A stretch of 34,183 nt of DNA. Source: Chloroflexota bacterium (GTDB lineage Bacteria; Chloroflexota; Anaerolineae; B4-G1; SLSP01). Location: NCBI GenBank assembly GCA_019873725.1, contig JAIOAS010000017.1, forward strand, positions 1 to 34,183, given 5' to 3'. The notes under the pieces were generated by a model that saw nothing but the letters and a program-made list of their open reading frames with translations, had not been told where the DNA came from and made no database searches. Made by a program: the position numbers and the translations under genes. Below, one piece after another: positions 10,626 to 32,583 of this stretch (the stretch's first letter is position 1; every line of letters starts with the position of its first letter).

Positions 10626-13220
10626 ATGATTACCAAGAAGTGGATGAACCTTTTGGCTGTGGTCGTACTTCTGAGCATGCTTCTCGCCGCTTGCGGTACA
10701 CCGGAACAAGTGGTTGTCACCGTTGAGAAGACGGTTGAGAAAGTGGTCGAGAAGACGGTCGAGGTCGAGAAGACGGTCGAGGTCGAGAAGGTGGTCGAGA
10801 AGACGGTTGAGGTTGAGGTGACCCCCGAGCCTGTCAAGATTGACCGCAAGGGCGCCTGGCTGGACACCCTCGTCTTCGTCGAAGAGCCGAGCGCGGATGC
10901 CGCTGTGACCCGTCTCGAGGTTGGCGAGATCGATTTGTACGCCTACCAGGTCAGCAACCGCGAGGTTGTGGCCAAGGTGAAGGCGTCTGACGCTCTCGAT
11001 ACCTACCAATCCTCTGGTTCTTACAACGAGCTGACCTTCAACCCCGCCGGTCCCGAACTCGAGAACGGCACGCTCAACCCCTTTGCTGTTCCTGCGGTGC
11101 GCGAGGCGATGAACTGGCTGGTGGATCGCAACTACATCGTCCAGGAAATTATGGGCGGTATGGCGATTCCCCGCTGGTTGCCCTTCAACACGGCGTCTGC
11201 AGACTATGCCCGTCTGGCGGATGTGGCCCGCGGGCTGGAACTGAAGTACGCCTATAACAAGGAAAAGGCGCAGGAAGTCATCGGCGCAGAGATGGAGAAA
11301 CTGGGCGCCACCCTGGTGGATGGCAAGTGGCAGTACAACGGCGCGCCAGTCAACCTGATCGTCCTCATCCGCACCGAGGATGAGCGCCGTGGCATCGGTG
11401 ACTACGTCGCCAATCAATTGGAAGACATCGGCTTCACCGTGACCCGCGACTACAAGACGGCGGCGGAAGCCTCCCCGATCTGGATGCGCGGCAATCCTGC
11501 CGATGGCAATTTCCATGTCTACACCGGCGGGTGGATTACCACGGCAGTGCCCCGCACCCTGGCGGATAACTTCGCGTTCTTCTATACCAATATGGGGTTG
11601 GGTGTGCCCCTATGGCAGGCTTACGTCAACACGCCGGAGTTCTATGAGTTGGCCGATCGCCTGCAACGCAGCGATTTCAAGAATATGGAAGAGCGCTCCG
11701 AAATGATGGCGGAGGCCCTCGAAATGGCATTGCAGGACTCCGTCCGCATCTGGCTGTGTGACCGTACCTCCCTGACCCCCAAGCGCAAGGAAGTCAAGGC
11801 CGCATCTGACCTGTACGGTGGTGTGAGTGGTTCGACCCTCTGGGCTTACACGCTGCAACGCGAGGGTGAGGTCGGCGGTTCTATGACCATCGCCATGCCG
11901 AGCATCCTCACCGAGCCGTGGAACCCCATCGCCGGCACGAACTGGATTTACGACATGATGCTGATTCGTGGTACGGGTGAAACCGCGCTTGTGGCCGATC
12001 CTTTCACCGGCCTTAGTCTGCCACAACGCGTTGAGCGTGCGGAGGTCACCGTGCAGACGGGTCTGCCCGTCTTCAAGACCCTCGATTGGGTCGATTTGCA
12101 ATTCGCGGATTCCATTGAAGTGCCTGCCGATGCGTGGGCGGACTGGGACGCCGAGCAGCAGCGCTTCCTCACCGTCGCCGAGGTCTTCACCGAGACGCAG
12201 ACCGCAATGCGCAAGAGCGTGGTCTATTATCCGGCTGACATGTTCACCAGCGTCAAGTGGCACGATGGCAGCAATCTCTCCATCGGCGACTTCATCATGG
12301 GCATGATCCTCACCTTCGACCGCGCCAAGGAAGCCAGCGCCAACTACGATGCATCGGCTGTGCCAGCCTTTGAATCCTTCATCTCTAGCTTCAAGGGCGT
12401 GCGCATTGTCTCCGAGGATCCCCTGGTCATCGAGACCTACTCCGACGTCTATTACATGGACGCGGAAGATTGTGTCAGCACCTGGTGGCCCTACTACGCG
12501 CAAGGCCAGGGTGCATGGCACACGCTGTCTCTGGGCTTGTTAGCTGATGCCGCCGGCGAAGCGGCTTTCAGCGCCGACAAAGCCGACGAGTTGCAGGTGG
12601 AATGGCTCAGCTACATCGCCGGTCCCACCATCGCCACCCTGAAGGCGCATCTGGATACACTCGTCGTCACTCCCACGTTGCTTTATGAACCGACGATGAG
12701 TCAGTATGTGGACGCCACCGAAGTGCAGGCCCGCTATGCCAATCTCGCGGAGTGGTACCGCCAGCGCGGTCACTTCTGGGTTGGCACCGGCCCCTACTAC
12801 CTGGAGCGCGCGTTCCCCGTCGAAGGTACCGTCATTCTGAAGCGCTTCCTGGACTTCCCCGACATGGCGGATAAATGGATGCGCTTCTCCGAAGCCGCTA
12901 TCCCCGTCGTCGAACTGGATGGTCCTGGTCGCGTGACCATCGGCAAGGAAGCCGAATACGACGTCTTCGTCACCTTCAACGAGCAGCCCTACGCCATGGC
13001 TGACATTGACAACATCAAATACCTGGTGCTCGACGCCAAGGGCGAGGTTGCGCATGTCGGGCAGGCCGAAGCGGTTGCCGATGGTGAGTGGAAGGTCAAA
13101 CTCAGCGCCGACGTTACCGGCAAGCTCGAGGCTGGCTCCAACCGGCTCGAGGTCGTGGTGGTGTCGAAGCTGGTGGCTTTGCCTAGCACGGATGCCCTCA
13201 CGTTCGTGACGGCCAAATAG
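10626..13220 (+). CDS. ABC transporter solute-binding lipoprotein, SBP_bac_5-type, circularly permuted
   Basis: This 864-aa extracytoplasmic lipoprotein presumably captures peptides or similar solutes for the permeases downstream. The signal peptide ends in the lipobox LLAAC (C23). A Val-Glu-Lys repeat linker spans 29-65. The binding-domain landmarks then appear in swapped order: LDTLVF (79), VREAMNWLVDR (158-168), an IGFTV block (268-272) and FHVYTG (296-301), which normally form the C-terminal half; then EPWNP (430-434), KWHDG (544-548) and GTGPY (720-724), which normally form the N-terminal half. Residues about 760-864 form a beta-rich Ig-like tail. Usual family length is 500-650 aa. A TAGGAGGAG site precedes the ATG. 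The second binding protein at 18375 has the normal order. The alternative is an unequal fusion of two tandem binding-protein genes. Confidence 0.9.
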   Translation: MITKKWMNLLAVVVLLSMLLAACGTPEQVVVTVEKTVEKVVEKTVEVEKTVEVEKVVEKTVEVEVTPEPVKIDRKGAWLDTLVFVEEPSADAAVTRLEVGEIDLYAYQVSNREVVAKVKASDALDTYQSSGSYNELTFNPAGPELENGTLNPFAVPAVREAMNWLVDRNYIVQEIMGGMAIPRWLPFNTASADYARLADVARGLELKYAYNKEKAQEVIGAEMEKLGATLVDGKWQYNGAPVNLIVLIRTEDERRGIGDYVANQLEDIGFTVTRDYKTAAEASPIWMRGNPADGNFHVYTGGWITTAVPRTLADNFAFFYTNMGLGVPLWQAYVNTPEFYELADRLQRSDFKNMEERSEMMAEALEMALQDSVRIWLCDRTSLTPKRKEVKAASDLYGGVSGSTLWAYTLQREGEVGGSMTIAMPSILTEPWNPIAGTNWIYDMMLIRGTGETALVADPFTGLSLPQRVERAEVTVQTGLPVFKTLDWVDLQFADSIEVPADAWADWDAEQQRFLTVAEVFTETQTAMRKSVVYYPADMFTSVKWHDGSNLSIGDFIMGMILTFDRAKEASANYDASAVPAFESFISSFKGVRIVSEDPLVIETYSDVYYMDAEDCVSTWWPYYAQGQGAWHTLSLGLLADAAGEAAFSADKADELQVEWLSYIAGPTIATLKAHLDTLVVTPTLLYEPTMSQYVDATEVQARYANLAEWYRQRGHFWVGTGPYYLERAFPVEGTVILKRFLDFPDMADKWMRFSEAAIPVVELDGPGRVTIGKEAEYDVFVTFNEQPYAMADIDNIKYLVLDAKGEVAHVGQAEAVADGEWKVKLSADVTGKLEAGSNRLEVVVVSKLVALPSTDALTFVTAK

Positions 13221-13235
13221 TGCAGTTGGTTTAAT

Positions 13236-13271
13236 GCGCTAGGGGCGAAAGACCGCCCCTAGCGCGCTTTT
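13236..13271 (+). terminator. Hairpin with T-tract after binding-protein gene
   Basis: A 12-bp stem GCGCTAGGGGCG / CGCCCCTAGCGC encloses the loop AAAGAC and is followed by GCTTTT. It lies between the binding-protein and permease genes, where partial termination or 3'-end protection typically keeps binding protein in excess over the membrane subunits. Confidence 0.8.
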
Positions 13272-13300
13272 CTAAATGAGGATAGAAAGCGAGATGCGCT

Positions 13301-14440
13301 ATGACTGAAGCTGCTTTGCCTGTGCCATCGGGCGTTGAAACGTCAAAGACACGACCTTCTCGAAATTCCACGCTCAAACTGATGCGATATGTTGTCATCA
13401 AATTGATCTCTCTTTTCATCGCCGTCACTATCGGTGTGTATCTCACCATCTTGATTGCCAACATGGGCGGGTACGTGGATGAGATTCTCAAAGGTCAGAT
13501 CCGTGAGAGTATTTCTGTCTCGATCAGTATGGATCCAACGAAGAAAAATCTGACGATGGCAGAACGAGGTCGATTGATCGATGAGTTGGTGGCCCTCGAG
13601 GAGCATCGCCTGGGGTTAGACCAGCCTTTTCTGCTGCGCAGTTTCCGTTTCCTCGGCCGCGCGCTGACGCTCAACCTGGGACGCGCGCAACGGATGGCCA
13701 GCGATAGTGGCTCCAAGTTAGTGCGCAACATTATTCTCGAACGTCTCCCCCCCACGTTGCTATTGATGGGGACTTCGAGTATGTCTTTGTTCTTTATCAC
13801 GCTCTTCATTGCCTTGTTTCTTTCCCGCAACTACGGCAGCCTTTTCGATAAATTGGTCATTGCACTGTCGCCGACGTCCGCCGCGCCGGCCTGGTTCTAT
13901 GGAATTTTCCTGTTGTTGCTTTTTGCCGCCGTGCTGGGCTGGTTGCCTTTTGGCGGCATGGTAGACGCGCCGCCACCCGAGTCCCCTGTCGACTATGGGC
14001 TGAGTTTGTTGCGCCATTTGATCCTGCCGGTCATCGCCTGGTTGATCAGCGGATTCTTTGCCGGCGTCTATGGCTACCGCACGTTTTTCCTCATCTTCTC
14101 AATGGAGGACTACGTGGAGCTGGCCCGCGCCAAGGGTCTGACTTCCAGAGAGATTGAACGGCGATATGTGTTGCGCCCGACGTTGCCGAATATCATCACG
14201 AACTTTGCTTTGACCGTGATTGGGCTGTGGAACGGCGCGACCATTTTGGAAACCGTGTTTAACTGGCCTGGGATAGGTCGGCTCATTTATCAGGCGGTCG
14301 GTCTCTACGACTCGCCGGTCATCATCGGTACGACTGTCATCAACGCCTATCTCCTGGCGATCACGGTCTTTCTGTTGGACTTTATCTATGCCCTGGTTGA
14401 TCCACGGGTGCGTGTCGGTAGTGGGGGGCCTCGATCATGA
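13301..14440 (+). CDS. ABC transporter permease, DppB/OppB-like
   Basis: This 379-aa inner-membrane permease of a peptide/opine-type importer has about six membrane segments, for example around 31-52, 155-173, 197-215, 240-258, 300-318 and 345-366. The ATPase-contact EAA loop is at about 269-297 (DYVELARAKGL followed by RYVLRPTLPN). RLGLDQPF (103-110) and LNLGRAQ match the DppB N-terminal pattern. The loop between TM1 and the GLDQP element is longer than usual and charged. The gene is followed by the second permease with an ATGA overlap at 14437-14440. Confidence 0.93.
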   Translation: MTEAALPVPSGVETSKTRPSRNSTLKLMRYVVIKLISLFIAVTIGVYLTILIANMGGYVDEILKGQIRESISVSISMDPTKKNLTMAERGRLIDELVALEEHRLGLDQPFLLRSFRFLGRALTLNLGRAQRMASDSGSKLVRNIILERLPPTLLLMGTSSMSLFFITLFIALFLSRNYGSLFDKLVIALSPTSAAPAWFYGIFLLLLFAAVLGWLPFGGMVDAPPPESPVDYGLSLLRHLILPVIAWLISGFFAGVYGYRTFFLIFSMEDYVELARAKGLTSREIERRYVLRPTLPNIITNFALTVIGLWNGATILETVFNWPGIGRLIYQAVGLYDSPVIIGTTVINAYLLAITVFLLDFIYALVDPRVRVGSGGPRS

Positions 14441-15786
14441 ACGCTCTAAAACGCAGCCTTAAAGAACTGGCAAACTACCCATCTGCGATCGGCGGAGGGA
14501 TCATTATTCTGTTCCTGGTGTTCCTTGCTGTGTATGCCATTGTCACCATTCCGTACAGCGAAGCGATTCGACTGTGGCGCGGTGGTGAGGAGATCTGGGG
14601 CGACAATCCCCGCATTGTACCGCCGGCATGGACCAATTTTTTCCGTCGGGCAAAACAACCCGAAACCATTGTGCTTGATAGTCGGGATCCGGCTGATTTG
14701 ATCTCCAAAACCGTGACGGAGATTTCGGAGGGGATGTGGGACGTGGTGATGACGTTCGATTTCGACTACAACTACGACGCCTTCCCTCAGGAATTGAACG
14801 TCTTCATGAATGCAACCTTTGTCGAAAAGGGGCCGTTTGTCTCCATGTTTTGGATCACGCCGGATGGCCGGGAGATTCGCCTGGGTGAGGTCACCGCTAA
14901 GCGGTCGGAAACCTATCGCTTTGCGCAGGATGAACGGTTGTTGCGCCGTCTCAAAGGGGTCGAGCCGCAGATTGCGCTGTTCGCCGATCCTGACAAGGAA
15001 ACGCCCACGGTGCTCAAAGGCAAGTACCAGTTGCGGATCGACGCCGTCACTTTTGAGGAGAACGCCGACCTGGAGGCGAAATTTATCGCCTATGGCAAGG
15101 TGCATGGCCTGGCGGGCACCGATCATCGCCGCCGCGATCTGACCATTGCGCTGCTGTGGGGAACGCCGATTGCGCTCTCGTTTGGCCTGTTGGCGGCGCT
15201 GGGCACGAGTGTCATTACGATGGCCATCGCAGCTATTGGGGTGTGGTTCGGTGGCGTCGTCGATGAACTGATTCAACGGATTACCCAGATCAACATCTTG
15301 CTGCCAACGCTTCCTATTCTCATTATGGTTGGCACGTTTCAATCCCGGAGCATTTGGGTGATCCTGGGGTGGATTATCTTGCTAAACCTGTTCGGGGGGG
15401 CGATCATCAGCTTTCGCGCCGTGTTCTTGCAGATTAAGGAATCCCCCTATATCGAGGCGGCGCGTTCCTATGGCGCCAGCAGTTGGCGCATCATTTTTCT
15501 TTACCTGGTTCCCCGCATTATTCCGGTGCTGATTCCCAATTTGGTCAACGGTATTCCGGCCTTCGTGTTCCTGGAAGCCTCCCTGGCGCTGTTGGGCCTG
15601 GGGGATCCGGTGCTGCCGACGTGGGGCAAACTGATTGACGATGCACGCTCCAACGGGGCGCTGTATAACGCGCAGTACTTCTGGGTGATGGAGCCGGCCA
15701 TCCTGTTGATGCTTGCGGGCCTGGGCTTTGCGATGATGGGGTTTGCCCTGGATCGCGTCTTTAACCCTCGACTGAGAGAGGTGTAG
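14437..15786 (+). CDS. ABC transporter permease, DppC/OppC-like, with large extracytoplasmic insertion
   Basis: This 449-aa second membrane subunit compares with about 280-320 aa for typical DppC. TM1 is at about 17-38. A hydrophilic, beta-rich segment of roughly 185 residues (about 40-225) then precedes the family element GTDHRRRDLTIALLWGTPIAL (about 217-237). The EAA loop is at 339-358 (YIEAARSYGASSW followed by IIFLYLVP). The C-terminal ASLALLGLGDPVLPTWG block is standard for the family. The extra domain should face the outside, where the binding protein docks. Given the permuted binding protein, it may form a matching docking surface; that is inference. Confidence 0.93.
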   Translation: MNALKRSLKELANYPSAIGGGIIILFLVFLAVYAIVTIPYSEAIRLWRGGEEIWGDNPRIVPPAWTNFFRRAKQPETIVLDSRDPADLISKTVTEISEGMWDVVMTFDFDYNYDAFPQELNVFMNATFVEKGPFVSMFWITPDGREIRLGEVTAKRSETYRFAQDERLLRRLKGVEPQIALFADPDKETPTVLKGKYQLRIDAVTFEENADLEAKFIAYGKVHGLAGTDHRRRDLTIALLWGTPIALSFGLLAALGTSVITMAIAAIGVWFGGVVDELIQRITQINILLPTLPILIMVGTFQSRSIWVILGWIILLNLFGGAIISFRAVFLQIKESPYIEAARSYGASSWRIIFLYLVPRIIPVLIPNLVNGIPAFVFLEASLALLGLGDPVLPTWGKLIDDARSNGALYNAQYFWVMEPAILLMLAGLGFAMMGFALDRVFNPRLREV

Positions 15787-15791
15787 AGCCG

Positions 15792-16751
15792 ATGTCAGAA
15801 ATGCCTTTACTGCATGTCGAAGATCTGAAGCTGTACTTCCGCACCGGAAAAGGTACGGTGCGCGCCGTGGATGGCGTGAACTTTGATCTTGAATCCAACC
15901 ATGCGGTTGTTATCGTCGGTGAGTCCGGCTGTGGTAAGACCTCGATGGCAAAGGCCATTCTGCGGTTGTTGCCGCGCAACGTCGATACCTATTCCGGTCA
16001 CATCTACTTGAACGGCGTTGACACCATGGCCTATAATGAGGAAGAGTACCGCCGCCAGATACGCTGGCGCAAGATGTCGATGGTGCCGCAGGCGGCGATG
16101 AACGCGCTTAACCCGGTTCTCAAGGTTGGCGATCAAGTGGCGGAGCCATCCATCATCCACAGCGCGATGCGCAAAGAAGAAGCTTTGGAACAGGCCAGCA
16201 AGATGTTCCAACACGTGGGGGTCCCCCAGGACTTCCTGCATCGCTACGCTTTTGAATTGAGCGGTGGGATGCGCCAGCGTGTCGCCATCGCTATGGCGTT
16301 GGTGACCTGGCCGGACCTGATTGTGCTTGACGAGCCGACCTCGGCGTTGGACGTTCTGACCCAGGCGAATATCTTCAACGTGTTGAAGGAATTGAAGGGT
16401 GAATTGGGGCTGAGCTTCATCCTGATCACCCACGATATTGCCACTTCCAGTGAATTGGCCGATAGCGTGGCGGTGATGTATGCCGGGCAGATTGTCGAGA
16501 CCGGGGATGCGCACCGCTTTTTTGCCGAGCCGCTGCATCCTTATTCACGCAAATTGATGGACAGCGTACCGCGCTTGCGCGGCACGCAGGAGCCGGATTT
16601 CATCGTCGGCCAACCGCCCAGTTTGATCAATCCGCCGACGGGCTGTCGTTTTGCGGCGCGCTGCCCGCAGTGTTTTTCGCGGTGTGCAGAAGAACCGCCG
16701 ACCGTCGCAGAAGATGGTCGAACCGTCAAATGCTGGTTGCATGTGAAATAG
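15792..16751 (+). CDS. Peptide-type ABC transporter ATPase, DppD-like
   Basis: This 319-aa cytoplasmic ATPase energises the importer. Walker [10 protein letters not shown] is at 43-51, Q-loop VPQ at 98-100, signature LSGGM at 156-160, Walker B LIVLDEP at 176-182, D-loop SALD at 184-187 and switch His H214. The C-terminal oligopeptide/dipeptide region contains C285, C291, C294, C298 and C314. Such a Cys cluster in DppD/DppF-type subunits is known to bind an iron-sulfur cluster in at least some transporters. It pairs with the next gene, as in Dpp/Opp systems. Confidence 0.95.
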   Translation: MSEMPLLHVEDLKLYFRTGKGTVRAVDGVNFDLESNHAVVIVGESGCGKTSMAKAILRLLPRNVDTYSGHIYLNGVDTMAYNEEEYRRQIRWRKMSMVPQAAMNALNPVLKVGDQVAEPSIIHSAMRKEEALEQASKMFQHVGVPQDFLHRYAFELSGGMRQRVAIAMALVTWPDLIVLDEPTSALDVLTQANIFNVLKELKGELGLSFILITHDIATSSELADSVAVMYAGQIVETGDAHRFFAEPLHPYSRKLMDSVPRLRGTQEPDFIVGQPPSLINPPTGCRFAARCPQCFSRCAEEPPTVAEDGRTVKCWLHVK

Positions 16752-16764
16752 AGGAGCTATCGCG

Positions 16765-17805
16765 ATGAATACACCAACAGAAACAGCTCAGACGGAAGGC
16801 GCAGTCGTAGCAGGCACACGCGGCAACGGTGACAACGTGTTGTTGTCGGTTCAGGATTTGCGGGTGTGGTTCGAGTTGCGGCGCTTTGGCTTTGGCCACG
16901 CCGGCTATGTGCATGCCGTGGATGGGGTGAACTTCGACCTGCACTACAGTGAAACTATCGCCATCGTTGGCGAGAGCGGTTGCGGTAAATCGAGCCTCAT
17001 GAAGACGATTTTGGCGTTGCACCGTCCGACAAAGGGGGATATCCTTTTCGAGGGTCAGAGCCTGAATGCGCTGCGAGGCCGTGAGATGCAGAAATATCGC
17101 TCCCAGGTCGGCTATGTGCAGCAGGACCCCTACGGCGCACTGGCTCCCTTCATGAACATCCAACGCATTCTTGAAGAGCCGCAGATTATCAATGGGATCA
17201 AGAACAAGGCGGAACGTGATGATCGTTTGCGCCGTGTCATGGAAGAAGTCAAAATGAGCCCCGTGGATGACTTCTTGCCCAAATTCCCGCACATGCTCAG
17301 CGGTGGGCAGCAGCAGCGGGTGGTGATCGCGCGGGCAATGTTGTTGGAGCCAAAACTCATCGTGGCCGACGAGCCGGTTTCGATGCTGGATGCTTCGGTG
17401 CGGGTGGAGATTCTCAAGTTGTTACGCAGTTTGCAGGAAGCTCACGATCTGGCGGTCATCTACATCACCCACGACCTTTCGACCGTGCGCTATTTCTCGG
17501 AGCGTGTCTTTGTGATGTACGCCGGGAAGATTGTGGAAAACTCCCCCATCAACGCCCTGATCCGCAATCCCTGCCATCCCTACACGGATGCGCTCCTGGC
17601 AGCCACGTCCGATCCGGATGCCAACAATGCCACCCGCTTCCGGGATGTGCCACCGGGCGAGCCGCCCAGTCTGGTGAAGCCGCCCAGCGGGTGCCGTTTC
17701 CATCCACGTTGTGCGCGCAAGATCGAGGGCCTGTGCGAGGTAGAAGAGCCACCCTACTTCGAACCGGAATCTAAGCACTTTGTCGCGTGTTGGTTGTACA
17801 AATGA
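16765..17805 (+). CDS. Peptide-type ABC transporter ATPase, DppF-like
   Basis: This 346-aa partner ATPase has Walker [10 protein letters not shown] (69-77), signature LSGGQ (178-182), Walker B LIVADEP (198-204), D-loop SMLD (206-209) and switch His in THDLS (H236). The C-terminal Cys residues C310, C316, C324 and C342 fall in the oligopeptide-transporter C-terminal region. The start at 16765 follows GAGGAGCTATCGCG. The 20-residue N-terminal extension is not conserved-looking. Its stop overlaps the start of the next small gene (ATGA). Confidence 0.95.
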   Translation: MNTPTETAQTEGAVVAGTRGNGDNVLLSVQDLRVWFELRRFGFGHAGYVHAVDGVNFDLHYSETIAIVGESGCGKSSLMKTILALHRPTKGDILFEGQSLNALRGREMQKYRSQVGYVQQDPYGALAPFMNIQRILEEPQIINGIKNKAERDDRLRRVMEEVKMSPVDDFLPKFPHMLSGGQQQRVVIARAMLLEPKLIVADEPVSMLDASVRVEILKLLRSLQEAHDLAVIYITHDLSTVRYFSERVFVMYAGKIVENSPINALIRNPCHPYTDALLAATSDPDANNATRFRDVPPGEPPSLVKPPSGCRFHPRCARKIEGLCEVEEPPYFEPESKHFVACWLYK

Positions 17806-18008
17806 ACGATATGCTGGCGCATCCCTGGAAATTGCTCGTGCTGGCCTTCGTCCTTCTGCTCCTGGGCCTGCTGCTCCCGTTACTCATGGTGCTTGGAGTT
17901 CTGAATTCCACGTTTTTCTTGAACTTCCTTGCTTATGCGGCATCCTTTTCGGGCATGGTTCTGGGGATGATCGGCGCTGTCTTGTACAGCCGCATACACA
18001 CAAAATAA
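17802..18008 (+). CDS. 68-aa two-helix membrane protein, last gene of the transporter operon
   Basis: ATG 17802 overlaps the ATPase stop codon (ATGA), so it is translationally coupled. The protein has two hydrophobic segments, about residues 11-34 (very Leu-rich) and 42-63, a short N-terminal part and a basic C-terminus (SRIHTK). I recognise no family. Its position suggests a small accessory or stabilising subunit of the importer, but nothing in the sequence proves this. Confidence 0.75.
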   Translation: MNDMLAHPWKLLVLAFVLLLLGLLLPLLMVLGVLNSTFFLNFLAYAASFSGMVLGMIGAVLYSRIHTK

Positions 18009-18022
18009 GGCTCGGTAACTCG

Positions 18023-18145
18023 AAAATGCTTTACGGGGATCGACAGCTCCCTTAAAATGCTCCACGGGGATCGACAGCTCCCTTAAAATGCTCCACGGGG
18101 ATCGACAGATCCCCGTTCTGGTCTGGATCGCCAGATCCAGACCAG
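18023..18145. repeat. 31-bp tandem repeat ending in two GNCA-core hairpins
   Basis: Units start at 18023, 18054 and 18085 and read AAAATGCTCCACGGGGATCG with small changes. The third unit closes into the perfect palindrome CGGGGATC-GACA-GATCCCCG (18096-18115). A further 12-bp stem follows: CTGGTCTGGATC-GCCA-GATCCAGACCAG (18118-18145). The block lies between the transporter operon and its terminator. It resembles the palindromes at 5977-6061 in loop but not in stem sequence. Confidence 0.88.
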
Positions 18146-18187
18146 GCAAAATTGGCTTTATTGAGTCTGGGTACGCCTGGCGTTCAC

Positions 18188-18221
18188 AGCCCCGCATCGC
18201 TTGTGGTTGCGGGGCTTTTTT
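18188..18221 (+). terminator. Intrinsic terminator of first ABC transporter operon
   Basis: The stem AGCCCCGCA (18188-18196) / TGCGGGGCT (18208-18216) is followed by TTTTTT. It ends the run of genes that began at 10626. Confidence 0.85.
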
Positions 18222-18236
18222 GTCTCTCGCGTGCTC

Positions 18237-18264
18237 TTGACTTTTCGATTTTTGTCCTTACAAT
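18237..18264 (+). promoter_or_regulatory. Sigma-70-type promoter of second transport cluster
   Basis: TTGACT (18237-18242) and TACAAT (18259-18264) are separated by 16 bp, directly after the preceding terminator. The leader to the ATG at 18375 is about 100 nt. It contains an 8-bp inverted repeat GTGACAGT (18279-18286) / ACTGTCAC (18313-18320) that could be an operator or RNA hairpin. Nothing else was recognised in that stretch. Confidence 0.65.
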
Positions 18265-18374
18265 GAAATTCGTTTATCGTGACAGTCCCTTTGCTCACAG
18301 GATATCACGAGCACTGTCACAGGTATCGGCCAGGGGTTCAGTCCCAAACGTTATCCCCATGAAGGAAGACACAG

Positions 18375-20315
18375 ATGTCACATAAAAAAACAATGCTCAT
18401 AGGGGGAGCTATCGTGCTGTTGAGCATGATGTGGTCCGCCTGTAATCTCGTTCCCACTCCTGAGAGGATTATCGAGACCGTGGTGGTCGAGAAAACCGTC
18501 GAGACGATCGTGGAGAAGGTGGTCGAAAAGGTGGTCAACAAGACGCCGGAACCGGTTAACGAGGGCCTTAAGACGTTGGTGGTCTGCCAGAGCGAGGAAC
18601 CTGACACGCTCTATCCGTATGGCGAGAGTACGTTGGCTGCGCGCCATATTCAGCAGGCTGTGTACGATGGCCCCATTGATCACCGCAGCTATGCCTACCA
18701 GCCCGTTATCCTGGAGAAATTGCCGAGCCTCGAAGATGGCGATGCGATTATCAACGCCGTTACCGTGCAGGCTGGCGATATTGTCGTGAACGATGCCGGC
18801 GAGCCGGTGGAACTGACCGAGGGGATGATGGTGCGCCCGTTCGGGTGCCGCTCATCGGAGTGTGCCGTGGAGTTCGAGGGCCCGCCGATGGAAATGGACC
18901 AAATGTTTGTGACGTTCAAGCTGATCGGCGACCTCAAATGGTCCGATGGCGCGTATTTGACCGTGGATGATTCTATCTATGCTTTTGAACTGGCAGCCGA
19001 CCCTTCCACACCGGTGAACAAGTTCACGATTGACCGCACTGCCTCTTACGAAGCGGTGGACGACAGGACTGCCATCTGGATCGGCCTGCCGGGTTACATC
19101 GACAAGACGTACTTCACCAATTTCTGGCCGCCCCTGCCGCGCCATCTCTGGCAGGAACAACTCGGCTACGGCGCGGCTGACCTCCTGGAAGCGGAAGAAG
19201 CTAATCGCATGCCGCTCGGCTGGGGGCCGTTCATCATCAAGGAGTGGGTGCCCGGCGATCACATCACCGTGGAGAAGAATCCGCTCTATCACCGCGCCGC
19301 CGAGGGATTGCCTTACGTGGATAACGTCATTTTCCGTTTTGTCGCGGATCCTAACTCTGCTCTGGCTCAATTGATTTCTGGCGAGTGTGATATTCTCACT
19401 CCGGATGTGTTGCCGGCAGACCTGACCCCCTTGCTGCTGAAGCTCGAACAGGAAAACGTGATCAAACTCGCCAGCACCCCCAACACGATGTGGGAACACG
19501 TCAACTTTGGGATCAGCTCCGCGCCGGGGTACAAACGTCCGGATTTCTTTGGTGACGTGCGCATGCGCCAGGCGTTTGCCTATTGTCTCGACCGCCAGGT
19601 GGTAGTGGACACCGTGTTGTACGGGCGTTCGAGCGTCCTCAATTCCTATTTTCCGTCTGCACATCCTTATTACGCTGCGGATCTGGCCGAATACCCCTAC
19701 GACCCCAAGAAGGGCCAGGCTCTGCTTGAAGAAATGGGATGGGTGGATGCCAATGCCGACGGGGTGCGCGAGGCCAAGGGCATCGCGGACATCCCCGACG
19801 GAACACGGCTTGAGTTCACGTGGCTAAGTTTCTCGGATGTGCTGCGCCTGCAATATACACAAATCTGGCAGCAAAATCTGGCCGACTGCGGATTTATGGT
19901 GAACCTGGAGAACGTCCCGGTGGGACAATACTTCGCCAATGGGCCAGATGGCCCGCTGTTCGGTCGGCGCTTCGATGTGGCCTCTTTTGCGAGCAGCGTG
20001 GAGCCATCCTGCGAACGTTATCTGAGCAGCGCCATCCCCTCCGCCGATAACGCCTGGAGCGGGGACAACGTTTCCGGCTTTGCGGATGCCGGCTTTGATG
20101 CGGCCTGCAAGCGCGTGTTGAGTGCGCTTCCGGGGACAGCCGACTATCTCGAAGGACACCGGGAAGCCCAGCGCATTTTCGCCGAGCAACTGCCGGCGCT
20201 GCCGCTCTTTTCGCACTATACGCTGGCGGCGGTCCGCCTGGAGGTTGAGGGCTTCGTTCTGGATGCGACCGAAGATTCTGCGATGTGGAACATCGAGATG
20301 TTTGACACGCGATAA
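18375..20315 (+). CDS. ABC transporter solute-binding lipoprotein, SBP_bac_5, canonical order
   Basis: This 646-aa lipoprotein is expected to bind peptides or related solutes outside the membrane. The signal peptide ends in the lipobox WSAC (C23). A short VEK-type linker spans about 33-56. The SBP_bac_5 landmarks run in the normal order: EPDTLY (75-80), KWSDG (188-192), GWGPF (282-286), YVDNVIF (314-320), VRMRQAFAYCLDR (395-407), CGFMV (505-509) and FDVASF (533-538). GAAGGAAGAC precedes the ATG. Two ATPase genes follow, but no permease gene. It may therefore use the permeases encoded at 13301-15786 or others outside the window. Confidence 0.93.
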   Translation: MSHKKTMLIGGAIVLLSMMWSACNLVPTPERIIETVVVEKTVETIVEKVVEKVVNKTPEPVNEGLKTLVVCQSEEPDTLYPYGESTLAARHIQQAVYDGPIDHRSYAYQPVILEKLPSLEDGDAIINAVTVQAGDIVVNDAGEPVELTEGMMVRPFGCRSSECAVEFEGPPMEMDQMFVTFKLIGDLKWSDGAYLTVDDSIYAFELAADPSTPVNKFTIDRTASYEAVDDRTAIWIGLPGYIDKTYFTNFWPPLPRHLWQEQLGYGAADLLEAEEANRMPLGWGPFIIKEWVPGDHITVEKNPLYHRAAEGLPYVDNVIFRFVADPNSALAQLISGECDILTPDVLPADLTPLLLKLEQENVIKLASTPNTMWEHVNFGISSAPGYKRPDFFGDVRMRQAFAYCLDRQVVVDTVLYGRSSVLNSYFPSAHPYYAADLAEYPYDPKKGQALLEEMGWVDANADGVREAKGIADIPDGTRLEFTWLSFSDVLRLQYTQIWQQNLADCGFMVNLENVPVGQYFANGPDGPLFGRRFDVASFASSVEPSCERYLSSAIPSADNAWSGDNVSGFADAGFDAACKRVLSALPGTADYLEGHREAQRIFAEQLPALPLFSHYTLAAVRLEVEGFVLDATEDSAMWNIEMFDTR

Positions 20316-20333
20316 TTGTGGCGTTTGTGTTGC

Positions 20334-20366
20334 GGTGGCAGCGTTGAGGCGCTGCCACCGTTTTTT
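20334..20366 (+). terminator. Hairpin with T-tract after second binding-protein gene
   Basis: A 10-bp perfect stem GGTGGCAGCG / CGCTGCCACC encloses the loop TTGAGG and is followed by G and six Ts. As in the first operon, it separates the binding-protein gene from the downstream genes and probably allows partial read-through, since no new promoter was seen before 20381. Confidence 0.85.
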
Positions 20367-20380
20367 AGAGGGAGCAGGCT

Positions 20381-21397
20381 GTGGAAAACGTGACCCAGGT
20401 TGATAAAATACTCGAAGTACGTGATCTCAAAACGTACTTTTACACCGACGATGGTGTAGTGAAAGCCGTCGATGGGGTGGATTTTGACGTCCGGCGCGGC
20501 GAAATCGTGGCGTTGGTGGGCGAGTCCGGCTGCGGGAAGAGCGTGACCTCCTTCTCGATTATGCAGTTGGTGGGGACTCCCGGCAAGATTGTCGGGGGCG
20601 AGGTGCTGTTCAACGGGCAGGATTTGTTGAAGCTACCCGAAGCGGATATGCGTTTGATGCGTGGTGATCGGCTGTCAATGATTTTCCAACAGCCCACCTC
20701 GTGCCTGAACCCGGTGTTCCGCGTGGGGGATCAGATTGCGGAAGTTTTGCAGATCCATCGGGGGATGGACAAGAAGGAGGGCTGGAAGAGAGCCGTGCAC
20801 CTGCTGCGCACGGTCGGCATCCCCGAACCCGAGAAGCGCGTCTATGCGTATCCGCATGAGCTTTCGGGCGGCATGGCGCAGCGTGTGATGATCGCGATGG
20901 CGCTGGCCTGTGAGCCGGAATTGCTGATCGCCGATGAGCCGACGACGGCGCTTGACGTGACGATCCAGGCCCAAATTTTGGACCTGATGCGCGGTCTGCA
21001 AAGTCAGCTCGGCGCTTCGATCATCCTCATCACCCACGATATGGGCGTGGTGGCAGAGATGGCCTCGCGGGTGTCGGTCATGTATGCAGGCCGCGTGGTC
21101 GAACAGGCGACCGTCGATACACTTTTCGATAACCCACTGCATCCCTATACGCATGGCCTGTTGGCATCTATTCCGGTGATGGGCGTGGTGAAAGATCGGC
21201 TCGATACCATCCCCGGCACGGTGCCTAACCTGATTGATCTGCCGCCGGGCTGCAAGTTTGCTCCGCGTTGCCTCGCGCGTCTTGAACACAATCTGGAGGT
21301 GTGCACCGAGCGCGAACCCGACCTGGTAGAATATGAACCGGATCACCTCGTGCGTTGCTGGCTTTACCAGAATTCAAGGGAGACATCCGATGACTGA
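20381..21397 (+). CDS. Peptide-type ABC transporter ATPase, DppD/OppD-like (second cluster)
   Basis: This 338-aa ATPase begins at a GTG codon (20381) behind GAGGGAG. Walker [10 protein letters not shown] is at 47-55, Q-loop FQQ at 102-104, signature LSGGM at 161-165, Walker B LLIADEP at 181-187 and switch His in THDMG (H219). The C-terminal oligopeptide-transporter region contains C291, C297, C308 and C326. It resembles OppD/DppD from ordinary peptide importers more than the divergent ATPase at 15792. Its stop overlaps the next gene by 8 nt. Confidence 0.95.
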
Positions 21398-22415
21398 GGC
21401 ACAAAGGCAATCCGCTCATGACAACGGAAAGAAAGACCTGGTGGTCGTGCAAGACCTGGTCAAGTATTTCCCCATCCGCAGTGGGCTCTTGCAGCGCGTT
21501 CATGCGTATGTGAAAGCCGTCGATGGCGTCAGTTTCACCATCAAACAGGGGGAGACGTTAGGGCTTGTCGGCGAGTCCGGCTGCGGCAAAACGACGGTCG
21601 GGCGCACCTTGCTGCGTCTGACCCCTCCGACGAGTGGGCAGGTGTTTTTTGAAGGGCGCGACGTTTTTGCTCTGCGCGGGAAAGCACTCAAGGACATCCG
21701 CAAGGACATGCAGATTGTTTTTCAGGACCCGTACTCCTCGCTGGATCCGCGCATGCCGGTGGGCGAGAGCATCATGGAAGGATTGGTCGTGCATGGCATT
21801 GGATCGCCCGAAGAACGCTGGGAGATGGTCATTCACCTGCTGCGCATGGTCAACCTGGAAGACTTCCATGCCAAGCGTTACCCGCACGAGTTCTCAGGCG
21901 GGCAACGCCAGCGGATTGGCATCGCGCGGGCGCTGGCATTGAACCCTAAGTTCATCGTCGCCGACGAACCGGTATCGGCGCTGGATGTGTCGGTGCAGGC
22001 GCAGGTGCTGAACATTCTCATGGACTTGCAAGACCGGCTGGCATTGACCTATATGTTCGTCGCGCATAACCTGAGCGTGGTGGAACACATCAGCACCCGC
22101 GTGGCGGTGATGTATCTCGGCAAGATGGCCGAACTGGCCGACCGGCACGAAATCTTCGCGCACCCCTTGCACCCCTATACGCAGGCGTTGATGTCGGCCA
22201 TCCCGATTGCCGATCCCCGCAAGGCCGGGTCGCGCGCGCGCATCATTCTCGAAGGCGATGTGCCCAGCCCGATCAACCCGCCCCAGGGTTGCCGCTTCCA
22301 CCCCCGTTGTGCCTATGCCATCAAGGGATTGTGCGATCGGGAAGAGCCGGTTTTCAAGGACTATGGTTCAGGGCATCACGTCGCCTGTTGGTTGGTGGAC
22401 AAGCAAGCCGGCTAA
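21390..22415 (+). CDS. Peptide-type ABC transporter ATPase, DppF/OppF-like (second cluster)
   Basis: This 341-aa partner ATPase has Walker [10 protein letters not shown] (61-69), Q-loop [10 protein letters not shown] (111-120, a typical OppF block), signature FSGGQ (168-172), Walker B FIVADEP (188-194) and D-loop SALD (196-199). The switch position is Asn in AHNLS, as in OppF-type ATPases. ATG 21390 was chosen because AAGGGAG lies 8 nt upstream; the longer frame to 21333 is a shadow of the previous gene. The C-terminal region holds the Cys-rich CRFHPRC element. Confidence 0.95.
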
Positions 22416-27911: not shown

Positions 27912-28195
27912 AGGGCGAATTGGCAATTCGCCCTACGGCGATTTGTAGGCGTGCATGGGGGGACGCGACTGCACGCGCACGCCAGGTAATAATGGCGAAT
28001 TGGCAATTCGCCCTACGGCGATTTGTAGGCGTGCATGGTGGGGACGCGATTGCATGCGCAAGCCAGGTAATAATGGCGAATTGCCAATTCGCCCTACAGC
28101 GATTTGTAGGCGTGCATGGCGGGGACGCGATTGCACGCGCACGCCGGGCAATAATGGCGAATTGCCAATTCGTCCTACTGCGATTTGTAGACCAC
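27912..28195. repeat. 81-bp tandem repeat array, about 3.5 copies
   Basis: Units start near 27912, 27993, 28074 and 28155. Each opens with the palindrome GGCGAATTG(G/C)CAATTCGCC, then CTACGGCGATTTGTAGGCG, a GGGGACGCG block and a GCACGCGCACGCC-like end. Unit 4 is truncated, and its CTACTGCGATTTGTAG segment is the end of the subtilase gene on the minus strand (stop codon at 28175-28177). The array fills the whole 280-base gap between lexA and the convergent subtilase gene. Several frames are open through it, but this follows from repetition, not coding. Confidence 0.92.
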
Positions 28196-31100
28196 CGGCA
28201 GATAGCACTGCCACGGTTCCACATTCAACCAGAGCCGGCGTTCCCACCGTTGACCGGCGCCGTCTTCCAGAATCGCATCCACGCGGATTGGCTGTTCCCA
28301 GCTCCACACACGAAGAGGGATGGAGAGCACGTGTGTTTCCTCTACACCCAGAGCGCCTTCCCACACCGTCAGACCCCAACCGCTTACCGGGGGCATGGTT
28401 TCCGTTACCGGCGATGTGCCTGAGGTAAGCCAGGCTTGCATCTTCCCTTCTGTCACGGCGCCTGGCCCGCTGTTGTGCAGCGCGAAGGCGAGCGTCAGTG
28501 GTGTACCGGGATGCACTGTGGCCCATTCCGGCGAAAGCCATGCGCTGGTCGACAAATCTGCACCGGTGATGTGCAGCGCGCTGTCGCGGGTGAACGTAAA
28601 GCCCCACGAGGGTAGTCCCAGGGTGAGGGAGAGCGGAATGACCGTGCCCGGCTCACCCGTTGCGGTGACAGCCCACGTGAGCGTCAGTGGAGTGTGCGGT
28701 TGTAGTGTGCCGCTCCAGGTGATGGCCCGCGATGTGGGGTCGTACTCCAAGGCAGGTAACAGCGTGTCCTGAATGAGTGTCACCGCGGGCGGCAATGTGT
28801 GGGCGAGACGCGCCGGTAACGTCTCCACTGCATCGTTGTAGAGGGTGCAGGTGAGCATCACGCTCTCGCCGGGCAGCAGCGACTGCGGTGTGACCGTCCA
28901 GCGGCTCGTCCCCAGGGGGGAGAGCCAGCCGGCGCCTTGTTCCAATGCTGTGGCGCGCACGTCGAAGGGCAGCGTTTCCAGCGGGAAGGCGTAGAACAGT
29001 GTCCGCGAATTGGCGGTCGCTGTCGTGGCGGCGATGCCGAGCGGCTGCCCCAGTTGCCCTCGCATGACGGGCGCAGCGTCAGGCGTGGGATCGATGGCAT
29101 CGGCCCAATTCCTGAAGGGGAAGTTCAACGCGACCGGTCCCCACGTCCCTCCGGCGGGATGATCCGGAACGCCGAAGGCATGGCTGGGGGCGATGGACTC
29201 ATCCCAATGTAACACACCGAATCGCCGGGCCAACGCGCTGTCGTTGTGATAGTAGAGGAAGTCTTGCGACGTTAGCAGCAGCCGTCCCCCGCCGTCCAGA
29301 TAGTCCAGCAACACCGCGGCTTCCTGGCTGGTCACGGGGGCGTACCAGTCGTAGCCGGTGAACCAGATGATCAGCGGGTAACGGCGTAGCACCCCGAGGT
29401 CAGGTGATTCCGCGCCGGGAATACCACCTAGATTTTCCCCCGTATCCCATATATCGAAGGGGATGTCGCGTGCGTTCAACGCACTGATGTAGCGTTCTTC
29501 CATCGGATACCAGCGGTCGTCATCCACCAAAAGCACCGGCGCGGGGGTCTTGACGTTCAGAGTGATGGTTGTCGGTGTCGTCAAAAAGGGCGAAGTGGCC
29601 GTCACGGTGAGGGCGTTGCTGACGTTGACCCCAATCTCGGCGGGGATGGTGACGACGACGGTGAGCGTGAGCGTATTGCACGCCGATAGCATGGTTGTAG
29701 CGGGCGTCAGCGTGGCAGGCCAGGCGGCGGAATCCAGCGTGAGCGTGACGGGCGTGGTGAGTCCGCCGTAGCCGGTATGGCGCAGACGCATCGTGTGGGT
29801 GACGGCCTGCCCCGGCAGGTCGATGAGCAGGGGATCGCCCAAATGCTTGAGTTCGAGCGCCACAGTGGGGGGCGAGGTCATTAGCCAATCCACACTCCGT
29901 GCGAGCACCGTCTCCCGCTGGTCATCTGTGGAGATGCCTTCGTAGCCGAAGGAAAAGAAGAGGGCGCGGTAGGGCGTGCAGACCGACGCACTCACGCCGC
30001 CAGCGCTGCCGTCCGTATAGCGCCAAAGCAATTCTGCCTTGTCGGGATCATTGACTTTGACCACGTCGGGCCAGTCCTGGTTGTCTGCCCCGTCGCCGCC
30101 CTCGATGGTCACAGTGATGCCGGAGAACGGCCCCAGGCCGGTCAACCGGCGGACTGCTGCATTGTCCGCCATGTAGCCCGCGCCGATGGTTTCCAGCAGG
30201 TAGGGCTGTGCGCCGCCCAGACTCCCGCCGCCGTCGTAATAGGCCACGTCCTGCCCGCTGAGCAGCAACCGTCCACCACTTTTGAGATAGGCGTCCAGTT
30301 CCACACCGCCTCTGACCAATCCGGGCGAACCTTTAGGCGAGGACCAGAGGACGATGTCGTATTGCGCGAGGGTGGTGCTGATGGGGGTTTCAGCGGGCGG
30401 GTACTTGATGCGGTGCTCGTCGTAGGTGTAGGCGAGTGCGTCGAGGGCGGCTTTCCAATAGGCGGTCTGGCTGCCGTAGTACCACGCGCCCTCATCGACC
30501 AGCACCAGTGTCGGCGCTGGGGTGAGGATGAAGTCGTAGGTGGTGGTCTCTCCGGCGATGATGTTGACGGTGGCGGTGAGCACACGATAGCCCAATCCGC
30601 GCGCGGCGATGGTGTAGACGCCTGAGGGCAGCTTGAGGTTGTAGTCGCCGGAGACGCCGACGGTCGTTCTGACCGGCGTGCCGGGGGCTTCTATAGTGAC
30701 GGTGCGCGTGGGGGCGGAGCCTGTTTCCGCGACAACGACGCGACCTTGCAGCGTCCCGGTGGGCAGTGGGAGAAGGGCGAAATCGAGTTGCTGCTGTGTT
30801 CCGGTGAAAACGGGGACGTTTCGCTGCGTGGCGGGCAGGTATCCAAACGCCGAGGCGGTGACGTCATAGACGGTGGGAAGCAGTCGCAATGCGTAGTTCC
30901 CGGATGCGTCGGTGGTCGTGTGGGCCGGACTGCCATCTGGGTTGCGCGGTGCGGCAACGAGTGTGGCGTCGGCGATGCCCTGGCGGTTTGGCCCGGCGAC
31001 GTTGCCGGTGATCAGCCCGGCATGTGTAGCAACGGCAACTGCGGCGAAAGCGTCGACGCGGCCCCAGCCGCTGTCGTTGTTGGGCAAAGGCAGCGCCAGT

Positions 31101-32422
31101 GGGATGGCGGTTTGGGCGATGAGATCGCCGATCTCCGCGACAGAGAGCGTGGGATCGGCGGAACGCAGCAGCGCGGCCAGGCCGGCGACGTGCGGTGTGG
31201 CCATCGACGTGCCGCTGCCGAGTGCGTAGACGCCGCCGGGAACGGAGGAGAGGACGTTGACGCCCGGTGCAACGATGTGCGGCTTCACCTCGCCCCAGGG
31301 CGACGGCCCGCGACTGGAGAAGTAGGCCACCGCGTCATCGGGGTCGCTGGCGCCGACGGCGAAGACGCCCGGATTGCTGGCGGGCGAGCCGACAGAGCCG
31401 CGTGCCGGCCCGTTGTTGCCTGCTGCGAACAGCGGCAGGATACCTGCCGCCTGCAAGAGTGCGATGTCTTCCGCAAAGACGGTGTTTGAGGATAGCGATG
31501 ACGCCCAGGAGTTGTTGATCACATCGGGGGCTAAAGCCGCATCACCGCCGGGTGCCAGCAGCCATTGGAAGCCGGCGTGAATCCAGGATTCGTAACCAAA
31601 GCCTTCGCCGGTGAGTACTTTGACGCCGATCCACTGCGCTCCCGGCGCGACCCCGATACTTCCGGCTCCTACTGCCGTCCCGGCGACGTGGGTGCCGTGC
31701 CCGTGATCGTCATAGGGATAGACACCGCCGTTGACCACATCGAACCACGAGGATGTGTGATCGAAGAGGCCGCGACCTAGATTGCCCCGGTAGTTGTTAC
31801 TCAGGGCCGGATGAAGCATATCCACACCGGTATCCATAATGGCTACCACTGTGCCTGTCCCGGAGATGCCCAGGGTAGCCCAGACTTCAGGAACGTGGAT
31901 TTGCGTCAGACCCCAGGTGGGCGTTGTGACGGTCGCGCTTTCCGGGCCAGGGGCCTGGTCGGCGGTGAGGTACTGCTTGTAGTGATCCAGGCGGATTTCC
32001 GTCACCTCCGGCGACGCGATCAACCGGCGCACGAAATCAGGACTGGCCGTCAACGCGGTCGCCTGGATGCTCCACAAGTCCTGTCGCGCCAGCACCTCAC
32101 CCTGGCGCTGTGCTTCGGCAAGCAGGGGGGCCAGGGAGGCCAGGACGATGGCAAAATCGTCTTGCAGCGTTTCGACCAGCAGCGCGCGCGAAACCGCCCT
32201 TGCCGTCTCCGTTACCGGCGCTACGCCGCTCGCTTCTGCCGGGTGGAGCTTCACGATGATGCGCAGCGGTGTGTCCGGGGCGGTATCCAGCGCGCGCAAT
32301 ACGTCGGGTTCGACGATGGGGGGAGCGGCTGCCGTATTGGCGGCGCTGTACACTGTTGGTGTCACCGGACAGATTAAAAAGAGGATTATCAGGGCGATGG
32401 TCATCCGCACTGGTTTTCGCAT
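28175..32422 (-). CDS. Large secreted subtilisin-like serine protease (S8) with C-terminal modules
   Basis: This 1415-aa exported protease has a signal peptide (about 1-27) and a propeptide-like region (about 50-150). The S8 catalytic domain (about 185-460) has D197 (MDTGVD), H242 (HGTHVAG), oxyanion N336 and S406 (GTSMATPH). Two carboxypeptidase-regulatory-like domains follow (about 468-550 and 555-635). Two copies of a Rossmann-like module (about 638-850 and 962-1170) alternate with CARDB/Ig-like segments, and the tail is CYLPVVYKSQ. ATG 32422 is chosen because AAGGAG lies 8 nt upstream and a signal peptide follows; the longer frame to 32572 lacks both. It is probably a cell-surface or exported protease for external protein, which would fit the peptide importers in this window. 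Confidence 0.93.
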   Translation of the reverse strand: MRKPVRMTIALIILFLICPVTPTVYSAANTAAAPPIVEPDVLRALDTAPDTPLRIIVKLHPAEASGVAPVTETARAVSRALLVETLQDDFAIVLASLAPLLAEAQRQGEVLARQDLWSIQATALTASPDFVRRLIASPEVTEIRLDHYKQYLTADQAPGPESATVTTPTWGLTQIHVPEVWATLGISGTGTVVAIMDTGVDMLHPALSNNYRGNLGRGLFDHTSSWFDVVNGGVYPYDDHGHGTHVAGTAVGAGSIGVAPGAQWIGVKVLTGEGFGYESWIHAGFQWLLAPGGDAALAPDVINNSWASSLSSNTVFAEDIALLQAAGILPLFAAGNNGPARGSVGSPASNPGVFAVGASDPDDAVAYFSSRGPSPWGEVKPHIVAPGVNVLSSVPGGVYALGSGTSMATPHVAGLAALLRSADPTLSVAEIGDLIAQTAIPLALPLPNNDSGWGRVDAFAAVAVATHAGLITGNVAGPNRQGIADATLVAAPRNPDGSPAHTTTDASGNYALRLLPTVYDVTASAFGYLPATQRNVPVFTGTQQQLDFALLPLPTGTLQGRVVVAETGSAPTRTVTIEAPGTPVRTTVGVSGDYNLKLPSGVYTIAARGLGYRVLTATVNIIAGETTTYDFILTPAPTLVLVDEGAWYYGSQTAYWKAALDALAYTYDEHRIKYPPAETPISTTLAQYDIVLWSSPKGSPGLVRGGVELDAYLKSGGRLLLSGQDVAYYDGGGSLGGAQPYLLETIGAGYMADNAAVRRLTGLGPFSGITVTIEGGDGADNQDWPDVVKVNDPDKAELLWRYTDGSAGGVSASVCTPYRALFFSFGYEGISTDDQRETVLARSVDWLMTSPPTVALELKHLGDPLLIDLPGQAVTHTMRLRHTGYGGLTTPVTLTLDSAAWPATLTPATTMLSACNTLTLTVVVTIPAEIGVNVSNALTVTATSPFLTTPTTITLNVKTPAPVLLVDDDRWYPMEERYISALNARDIPFDIWDTGENLGGIPGAESPDLGVLRRYPLIIWFTGYDWYAPVTSQEAAVLLDYLDGGGRLLLTSQDFLYYHNDSALARRFGVLHWDESIAPSHAFGVPDHPAGGTWGPVALNFPFRNWADAIDPTPDAAPVMRGQLGQPLGIAATTATANSRTLFYAFPLETLPFDVRATALEQGAGWLSPLGTSRWTVTPQSLLPGESVMLTCTLYNDAVETLPARLAHTLPPAVTLIQDTLLPALEYDPTSRAITWSGTLQPHTPLTLTWAVTATGEPGTVIPLSLTLGLPSWGFTFTRDSALHITGADLSTSAWLSPEWATVHPGTPLTLAFALHNSGPGAVTEGKMQAWLTSGTSPVTETMPPVSGWGLTVWEGALGVEETHVLSIPLRVWSWEQPIRVDAILEDGAGQRWERRLWLNVEPWQCYLPVVYKSQ

Positions 32423-32523
32423 AGTAAAACTCCTTACATCATCGTTAAAACGGCCCTGATTTGCAGCCCCGAGCACTAACCGAAAGGGTGATTGTTGTAC
32501 GATTGCGTTTTCGCATAGTAAAA
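32414..32523. repeat. 16-bp direct repeat covering subtilase start codon and an upstream copy
   Basis: TTTTCGCATAGTAAAA occurs at 32414-32429 and again at 32508-32523. The first copy contains the subtilase start codon (minus strand). The second opens a 23-codon frame, at complement 32516-32445, whose start MRKRNRTTI resembles the subtilase start MRKPVRMTI. The AAGGAG site is present only at the functional copy. Confidence 0.8.
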
Positions 32524-32583
32524 TATTGCAATTCGCAATCGAAATTTCCAAATCAACAACTAAAACCGGCAATCCAAAGCCGT

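Follow-up and report, generated by a model that had tools for sequence, protein, structure and literature searches.

The window, by which we mean the whole stretch of 34,183 nucleotides of Chloroflexota DNA analysed here, carries on its forward strand an open reading frame at 10626-13220, annotated as a permuted SBP_bac_5 (cluster C) binding lipoprotein of 864 aa. In this protein the C-terminal half of the solute-binding protein (SBP) fold (residues 73-408, 10842-11849) comes ahead of the N-terminal half (residues 409-757, 11850-12896). The chain starts with a signal peptide predicted from the sequence (10626-10694), with a lipobox, LAAC, whose Cys at residue 23 would be lipidated, followed by a VEK-rich linker of residues 24-72 (10695-10841). 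The joint between the old C-terminus and the old N-terminus was placed by alignment at about residues 393-416 (11802-11873; DLYGGVSGSTLWAYTLQREGEVGG), these limits being approximate, and a tail of residues 758-864 (12897-13217) closes the protein. All the motif blocks listed in the initial annotation were recovered at their residues, both in this protein (LDTLVF 79, VREAMNWLVDR 158, FHVYTG 296, EPWNP 430, KWHDG 544 and GTGPY 720) and in the neighbouring binding protein at 18375 (EPDTLY 75, KWSDG 188, GWGPF 282, YVDNVIF 314, VRMRQAFAYCLDR 395 and FDVASF 533).

The two terminal additions were read differently from before. The VEK-rich stretch does lie between the lipid anchor and the C-terminal half, but it is not specific to this protein: canonical paralogues of the same genome also carry it and many permuted orthologues lack it, and we rejected it as part of the permutation design in favour of an ordinary lipoprotein linker. 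The tail, about 107 aa, forms an all-beta domain in the AlphaFold model and is 106-110 aa long in nearly all lipoprotein-type relatives. A Pfam search of residues 758-864 returned no match, and the proposed Ig-like identity, which its appearance fits, is plausible but unproven.

The permuted SBP is the first gene of a conserved operon on the same strand, and is followed by an OppB-type permease (13301-14440), an OppC-type permease of 449 aa (14437-15786), an OppD-type ATPase (15792-16751) and an OppF-type ATPase (16765-17805). One operon therefore holds an SBP, two permeases and two OppD/OppF-type ATPases, the gene set of an Opp/Dpp-type importer, and its order is kept in near relatives, distant Chloroflexota, a metagenome-assembled genome (MAG) labelled Bacillota and Bipolaricaulota. 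Further along the forward strand lie a canonical-order SBP_bac_5 lipoprotein (18375-20315), which is a conserved neighbour in near relatives and served as our internal control, a second OppD-type ATPase (20381-21397) and a second OppF-type ATPase (21333-22415). The region 10626-22415 thus contains two SBPs, one permuted and one canonical, and two ATPase pairs with a single permease pair. Since the canonical SBP and the second ATPase pair come without permeases of their own, the two SBPs may share one permease pair.

In the OppC-type permease TM1 and TM2 are separated by a non-membrane insert of about 185 aa (codons 45-230, 14569-15126, forward strand). The insert has no Pfam match and is present in full-length relatives of this permease, and most other OppC proteins of the genome align to the window OppC only from about residue 210-227 onward. 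A fused OppB-OppC permease of the window type, 921 aa long and including the insert, was observed on another contig of the same genome (L143:5657-8422, G000:C190). It is flanked by trpE, trpG and trpD before and by trpC and trpF after, names that we assigned by reading the proteins, and no SBP or ATPase was found beside it on contig C190. On the reverse strand of the window, at 28175-32572, lies a secreted-type subtilase of 1465 aa that contains CarboxypepD_reg repeats and might supply peptides close to the importer.

Order of the two halves of the fold

On searching the intact permuted protein with PF00496 we obtained a single match, residues 73-306 against profile positions 142-349 of 368 (E 2e-24; 86.9 bits against a gathering cut-off of 32.4), which covers the C-terminal half only. 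The N-terminal half of the window copy, excised and searched separately, matched profile positions 27-139 weakly (E 0.002), and the same half of the relative L086, from a single-contig assembly, scored above the gathering cut-off (33.7 bits, profile 25-150, E 2.8e-8). Matches at E ≤ 0.01 were seen in 10 of 20 aligned N-terminal halves, the best at 6e-7. The two stretches join at about profile position 140, neither overlapping nor leaving positions uncovered between them. The canonical neighbour at 18375 covers the profile in a single run (15-326); in the permuted protein the collinear order is absent, positions 142-349 coming before 27-139.

The same order was observed against the PDB. With the window sequence alone, chain A of 7fi3, the Thermococcus kodakaraensis OppA (Yokoyama et al. 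2022, doi 10.1002/prot.26324, as cited in PMC12136057), was matched twice in swapped order. A family profile of the C-terminal half matched 7fi3_A residues 329-570 (E 1e-29), and one of the N-terminal half matched residues 67-307 (E 4e-15) as its sole match, the first 86 residues of that half having no solid counterpart in 7fi3. We also compared the permuted family profile, in a rotation scan, with 15 canonical-order paralogues encoded in this genome. The hhalign score rose from 144 in native order to 177 when the profile started at about residue 409, and with the rotated profile a single collinear alignment crossed both the GTGPY and the LDTxxF block. The cut falls between the strands of these two blocks, as first proposed. 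Each half is therefore present in one copy, the copies are swapped and the match improves on rotation, as in a natural permutant. The swapped order is a direct observation, as is the homology between each half and the corresponding part of a canonical SBP; so too are the conservation of this order, the operon and the placement on a single side of the tree.

Most SBPs are shorter than this protein of 864 aa, whose length could suggest two complete SBP domains in tandem, one or both of them eroded. This is highly improbable, and it was the outcome named at the start as fatal to a permutation. PF00496 gives one stretch per half, and these are complementary parts of the family, neither half containing a complete domain. 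Because the halves show no resemblance to each other (hhalign probability 0.0), we ruled tandem duplication out; the extra length is contributed by the linker, an expanded N-terminal half and the beta tail.

The structure predicted by AlphaFold2 for residues 70-864 from 22 sequences (mean pLDDT 83, pTM 0.67, with low pLDDT past the joint) gave 7fi3 as its first Foldseek match (E 8e-20, 401 columns of 724). It was followed by canonical cluster C proteins whose TM-scores, relative to the target, were about 0.4-0.5. Foldseek is unable to follow a circular permutation, and such values would be expected if only one part can be aligned at once. When the N-terminal half was modelled alone (pLDDT 78), the only significant PDB match was again 7fi3 (E 2e-12, 263 columns, rmsd 3.3 Å, TM 0.57 of the query), which disposes of the earlier concern that this half might adopt an unrelated fold. 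The cluster C fold was thus recovered in Foldseek matches to 7fi3 both by the whole model and by the N-terminal half alone, and the PDB matches listed for the full model were cluster C proteins, not the cluster B sugar-binding fold. The two halves would be expected to pair into one fold.

Relatives, spread and secreted forms

Using a separate profile for each half, we found 98 ORFs (redundant) with the C-terminal half first and none with the N-terminal half first. Removal of identical ORFs left 78 rows. One of these repeats the window gene in truncated form; the other 77 distinct ORFs, from Chloroflexota, Bipolaricaulota and the Bacillota-labelled MAG, all have the permuted order. The orthologues to be looked for in Chloroflexota were found in many genomes, every one that has both halves being permuted, and the spread beyond that phylum, to the MAG labelled Bacillota and to Bipolaricaulota/Acetothermia, comes from one contig scan. 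Both halves are nearly complete in 71 of the 78 rows, and in most of these the profile limits of the two halves lie 0-1 residues apart. A lipobox-like motif is present in 52 of the 71.

This constancy bears on a further reading, in which the C-terminal half and the N-terminal half come from two different SBPs and fold as separate or domain-swapped units. The C-terminal half does match its families far more strongly than the N-terminal half, as halves of different source might. The two are contiguous, however, with constant spacing in nearly all relatives; their Pfam stretches abut at a single profile position, and their nearest solved relative is the same protein. We consider a fusion from two sources improbable. 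An assembly chimera or misjoined contig might also be suspected, as most of the sequences come from MAGs, but its likelihood is close to nil: the same order recurs in independent genomes, at identities as low as about 28%, and assembly error is excluded because four permuted relatives come from single-contig assemblies (G073, G294, G225 and G363).

In a tree of the C-terminal half, all permuted rows fell on one side of one branch (SH-aLRT 99), against canonical paralogues of the same genome; this was a quick search with long canonical branches. Neither a close canonical-order relative nor a duplicated intermediate turned up in 60 relatives, in 150 genomes of the class or in 201 of the phylum, and a plasmid collection yielded only a weak match of the C-terminal half, in a Sinorhizobium SBP. 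Weak relatives that at first looked canonical (L079-L083, L118-L120) were rejected as such, the order being permuted there too. Some of them (L079, L080, L118-L120) belong to a divergent permuted clade of about 28-30% identity and have a hydrophobic C-terminal segment and no N-terminal lipobox. As this segment replaces the lipobox, the anchor has switched ends while the permutation was kept. Three other permuted relatives (L084, L085 and L122) have an additional insertion of about 85-115 aa in the N-terminal half, near profile position 115-125. In an Acetothermia MAG the permuted gene (L051:7896-10359) is split into two overlapping frames of 498 and 369 aa, through either a frameshift or a sequencing error.

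One clade of the C-terminal-half tree (SH-aLRT 100) carries the permuted unit within secreted, often giant proteins. The unit is combined with FG-GAP repeats in L048 (1238 aa, ended by a contig edge), with TIG, PKD and CARDB domains in L053 (2454 aa) and with DUF11 and a beta-helix in L052 (2821 aa), and it stands alone in the secreted L058 (881 aa). In L052 it spans both halves and stops at query residue 757; the beta tail is left out, so that the permuted pair is what behaves as a transferable domain. No Opp genes were found beside L048, L052, L053 and L058 in the available sequence.

Four secreted permuted proteins (L053, L054, L056 and L058) end in a common short motif, with the forms FLPLVMRSFP, IYLPLVMHN and IYLPLVVR, which might serve Chloroflexota as a signal for surface sorting. 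A similar ending, VYLPLALRH, is seen in the canonical SBP immediately upstream at the L058 locus.

These secreted forms raise the question of whether the window protein still serves transport or, like its giant relatives perhaps, has become a sensor or an adhesin. The subclade with its FG-GAP, TIG, PKD, DUF11 and beta-helix domains and no neighbouring ABC genes would fit such a role, as would a histidine kinase and a response regulator encoded about 600 bases past the second ATPase pair of the window. The window gene itself leads an operon that also encodes the two permeases and the two ATPases, in an order conserved into other phyla, and we find a sensor or adhesin quite improbable here. For the family as a whole we tentatively raise a combined idea, which we hold to be rather less than an even prospect: the permutation would have made the binding unit a free module, which in the secreted clade would bind or capture ligands at the surface outside transport, and the copies that serve transport would dock in a new manner, matched by the large extracytoplasmic insert in OppC.

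Proposed explanation and comparison with known systems

Taking the gene and its operon together, we consider it very probable that 10626-13220 encodes a cluster C (SBP_bac_5) SBP that has undergone natural circular permutation and most likely acts as the oligopeptide-binding lipoprotein of the Opp importer encoded downstream. We infer the ligand class, the transport function and the evolutionary route as follows. The permutation would have arisen in a single ancient event, presumably a duplication and fusion followed by loss of the outer halves, which would have tied the old C-terminus to the old N-terminus by about 25 residues and opened new termini in the loop past the GTGPY strand. The protein would be exported and then lipid-anchored at its new N-terminus through the flexible linker, with the all-beta tail at the new C-terminus, and its ligand would pass to the products of the genes that follow, the OppB/OppC permease and the OppD/OppF ATPases. 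Going by the domain limits of OppA, domain I would contain the old termini as well as the new cut, all in the same lobe, and both lobes and the hinge strands would therefore be intact. With the lobes unchanged, closure on the ligand would be expected as in other Venus-flytrap proteins. The new termini may alter how the lobes hang from the membrane, as suggested in the initial annotation. Proteins of cluster C (SBP_bac_5) bind many ligands, including nickel, sugars and opines; for this protein oligopeptides are the most likely, because 7fi3 was crystallised with a pentapeptide and the partner genes are of Opp type.

ABC binding proteins are rarely permuted in nature. Among the open-licence papers searched in full text, one SBP family, Cluster Bc, proved to be naturally permuted, and none described a permuted protein of cluster C. 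The claim that no permuted member of this family had been described is consistent with this for cluster C, where an earlier description is possible, but the precedent in cluster B tempers it. The CIRPIN paper, which deals with permutation search, makes no mention of binding proteins. The present case would be a permutation that is conserved across phyla within cluster C, the large group of peptide-binding SBPs, and a canonical relative of solved structure is at hand for comparison. It would offer a natural test of how chain order and anchor position affect a Venus-flytrap protein and the docking of an SBP to its permease. It also shows that profile searches return half-domain matches for permuted SBPs and overlook the other half of the fold.

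The precedent, TpMglB-2 (Tp0684; Cluster Bc, Type Ic), is an ABC binding lipoprotein in which a natural circular permutation extends across the lineage and ligand binding was kept, and tethering has been proposed as a reason for it (PMC4990184). Unlike the window protein it has the cluster B sugar-binding fold, is cut elsewhere in the fold and requires a fourth hinge crossing (PMC4990184). The two permutations are independent events in unrelated SBP clusters.

Within cluster C, the Thermococcus kodakaraensis OppA (7fi3) is the closest solved relative of both halves, a large protein with a bound pentapeptide that shares about 19% identity with the permuted protein over the structural alignment; its order, in contrast, is canonical, the N-terminal half (67-307) preceding the C-terminal half (329-570). 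DppA, OppA, AppA and NikA likewise have both halves of the fold, are lipid-anchored and adjoin Opp-type permeases and ATPases, but they keep the canonical order, as do at least 15 paralogues of the same genome. Judged by the homology of both halves, the permuted protein belongs with these cluster C proteins, yet it lacks the canonical order that defines their domain model.
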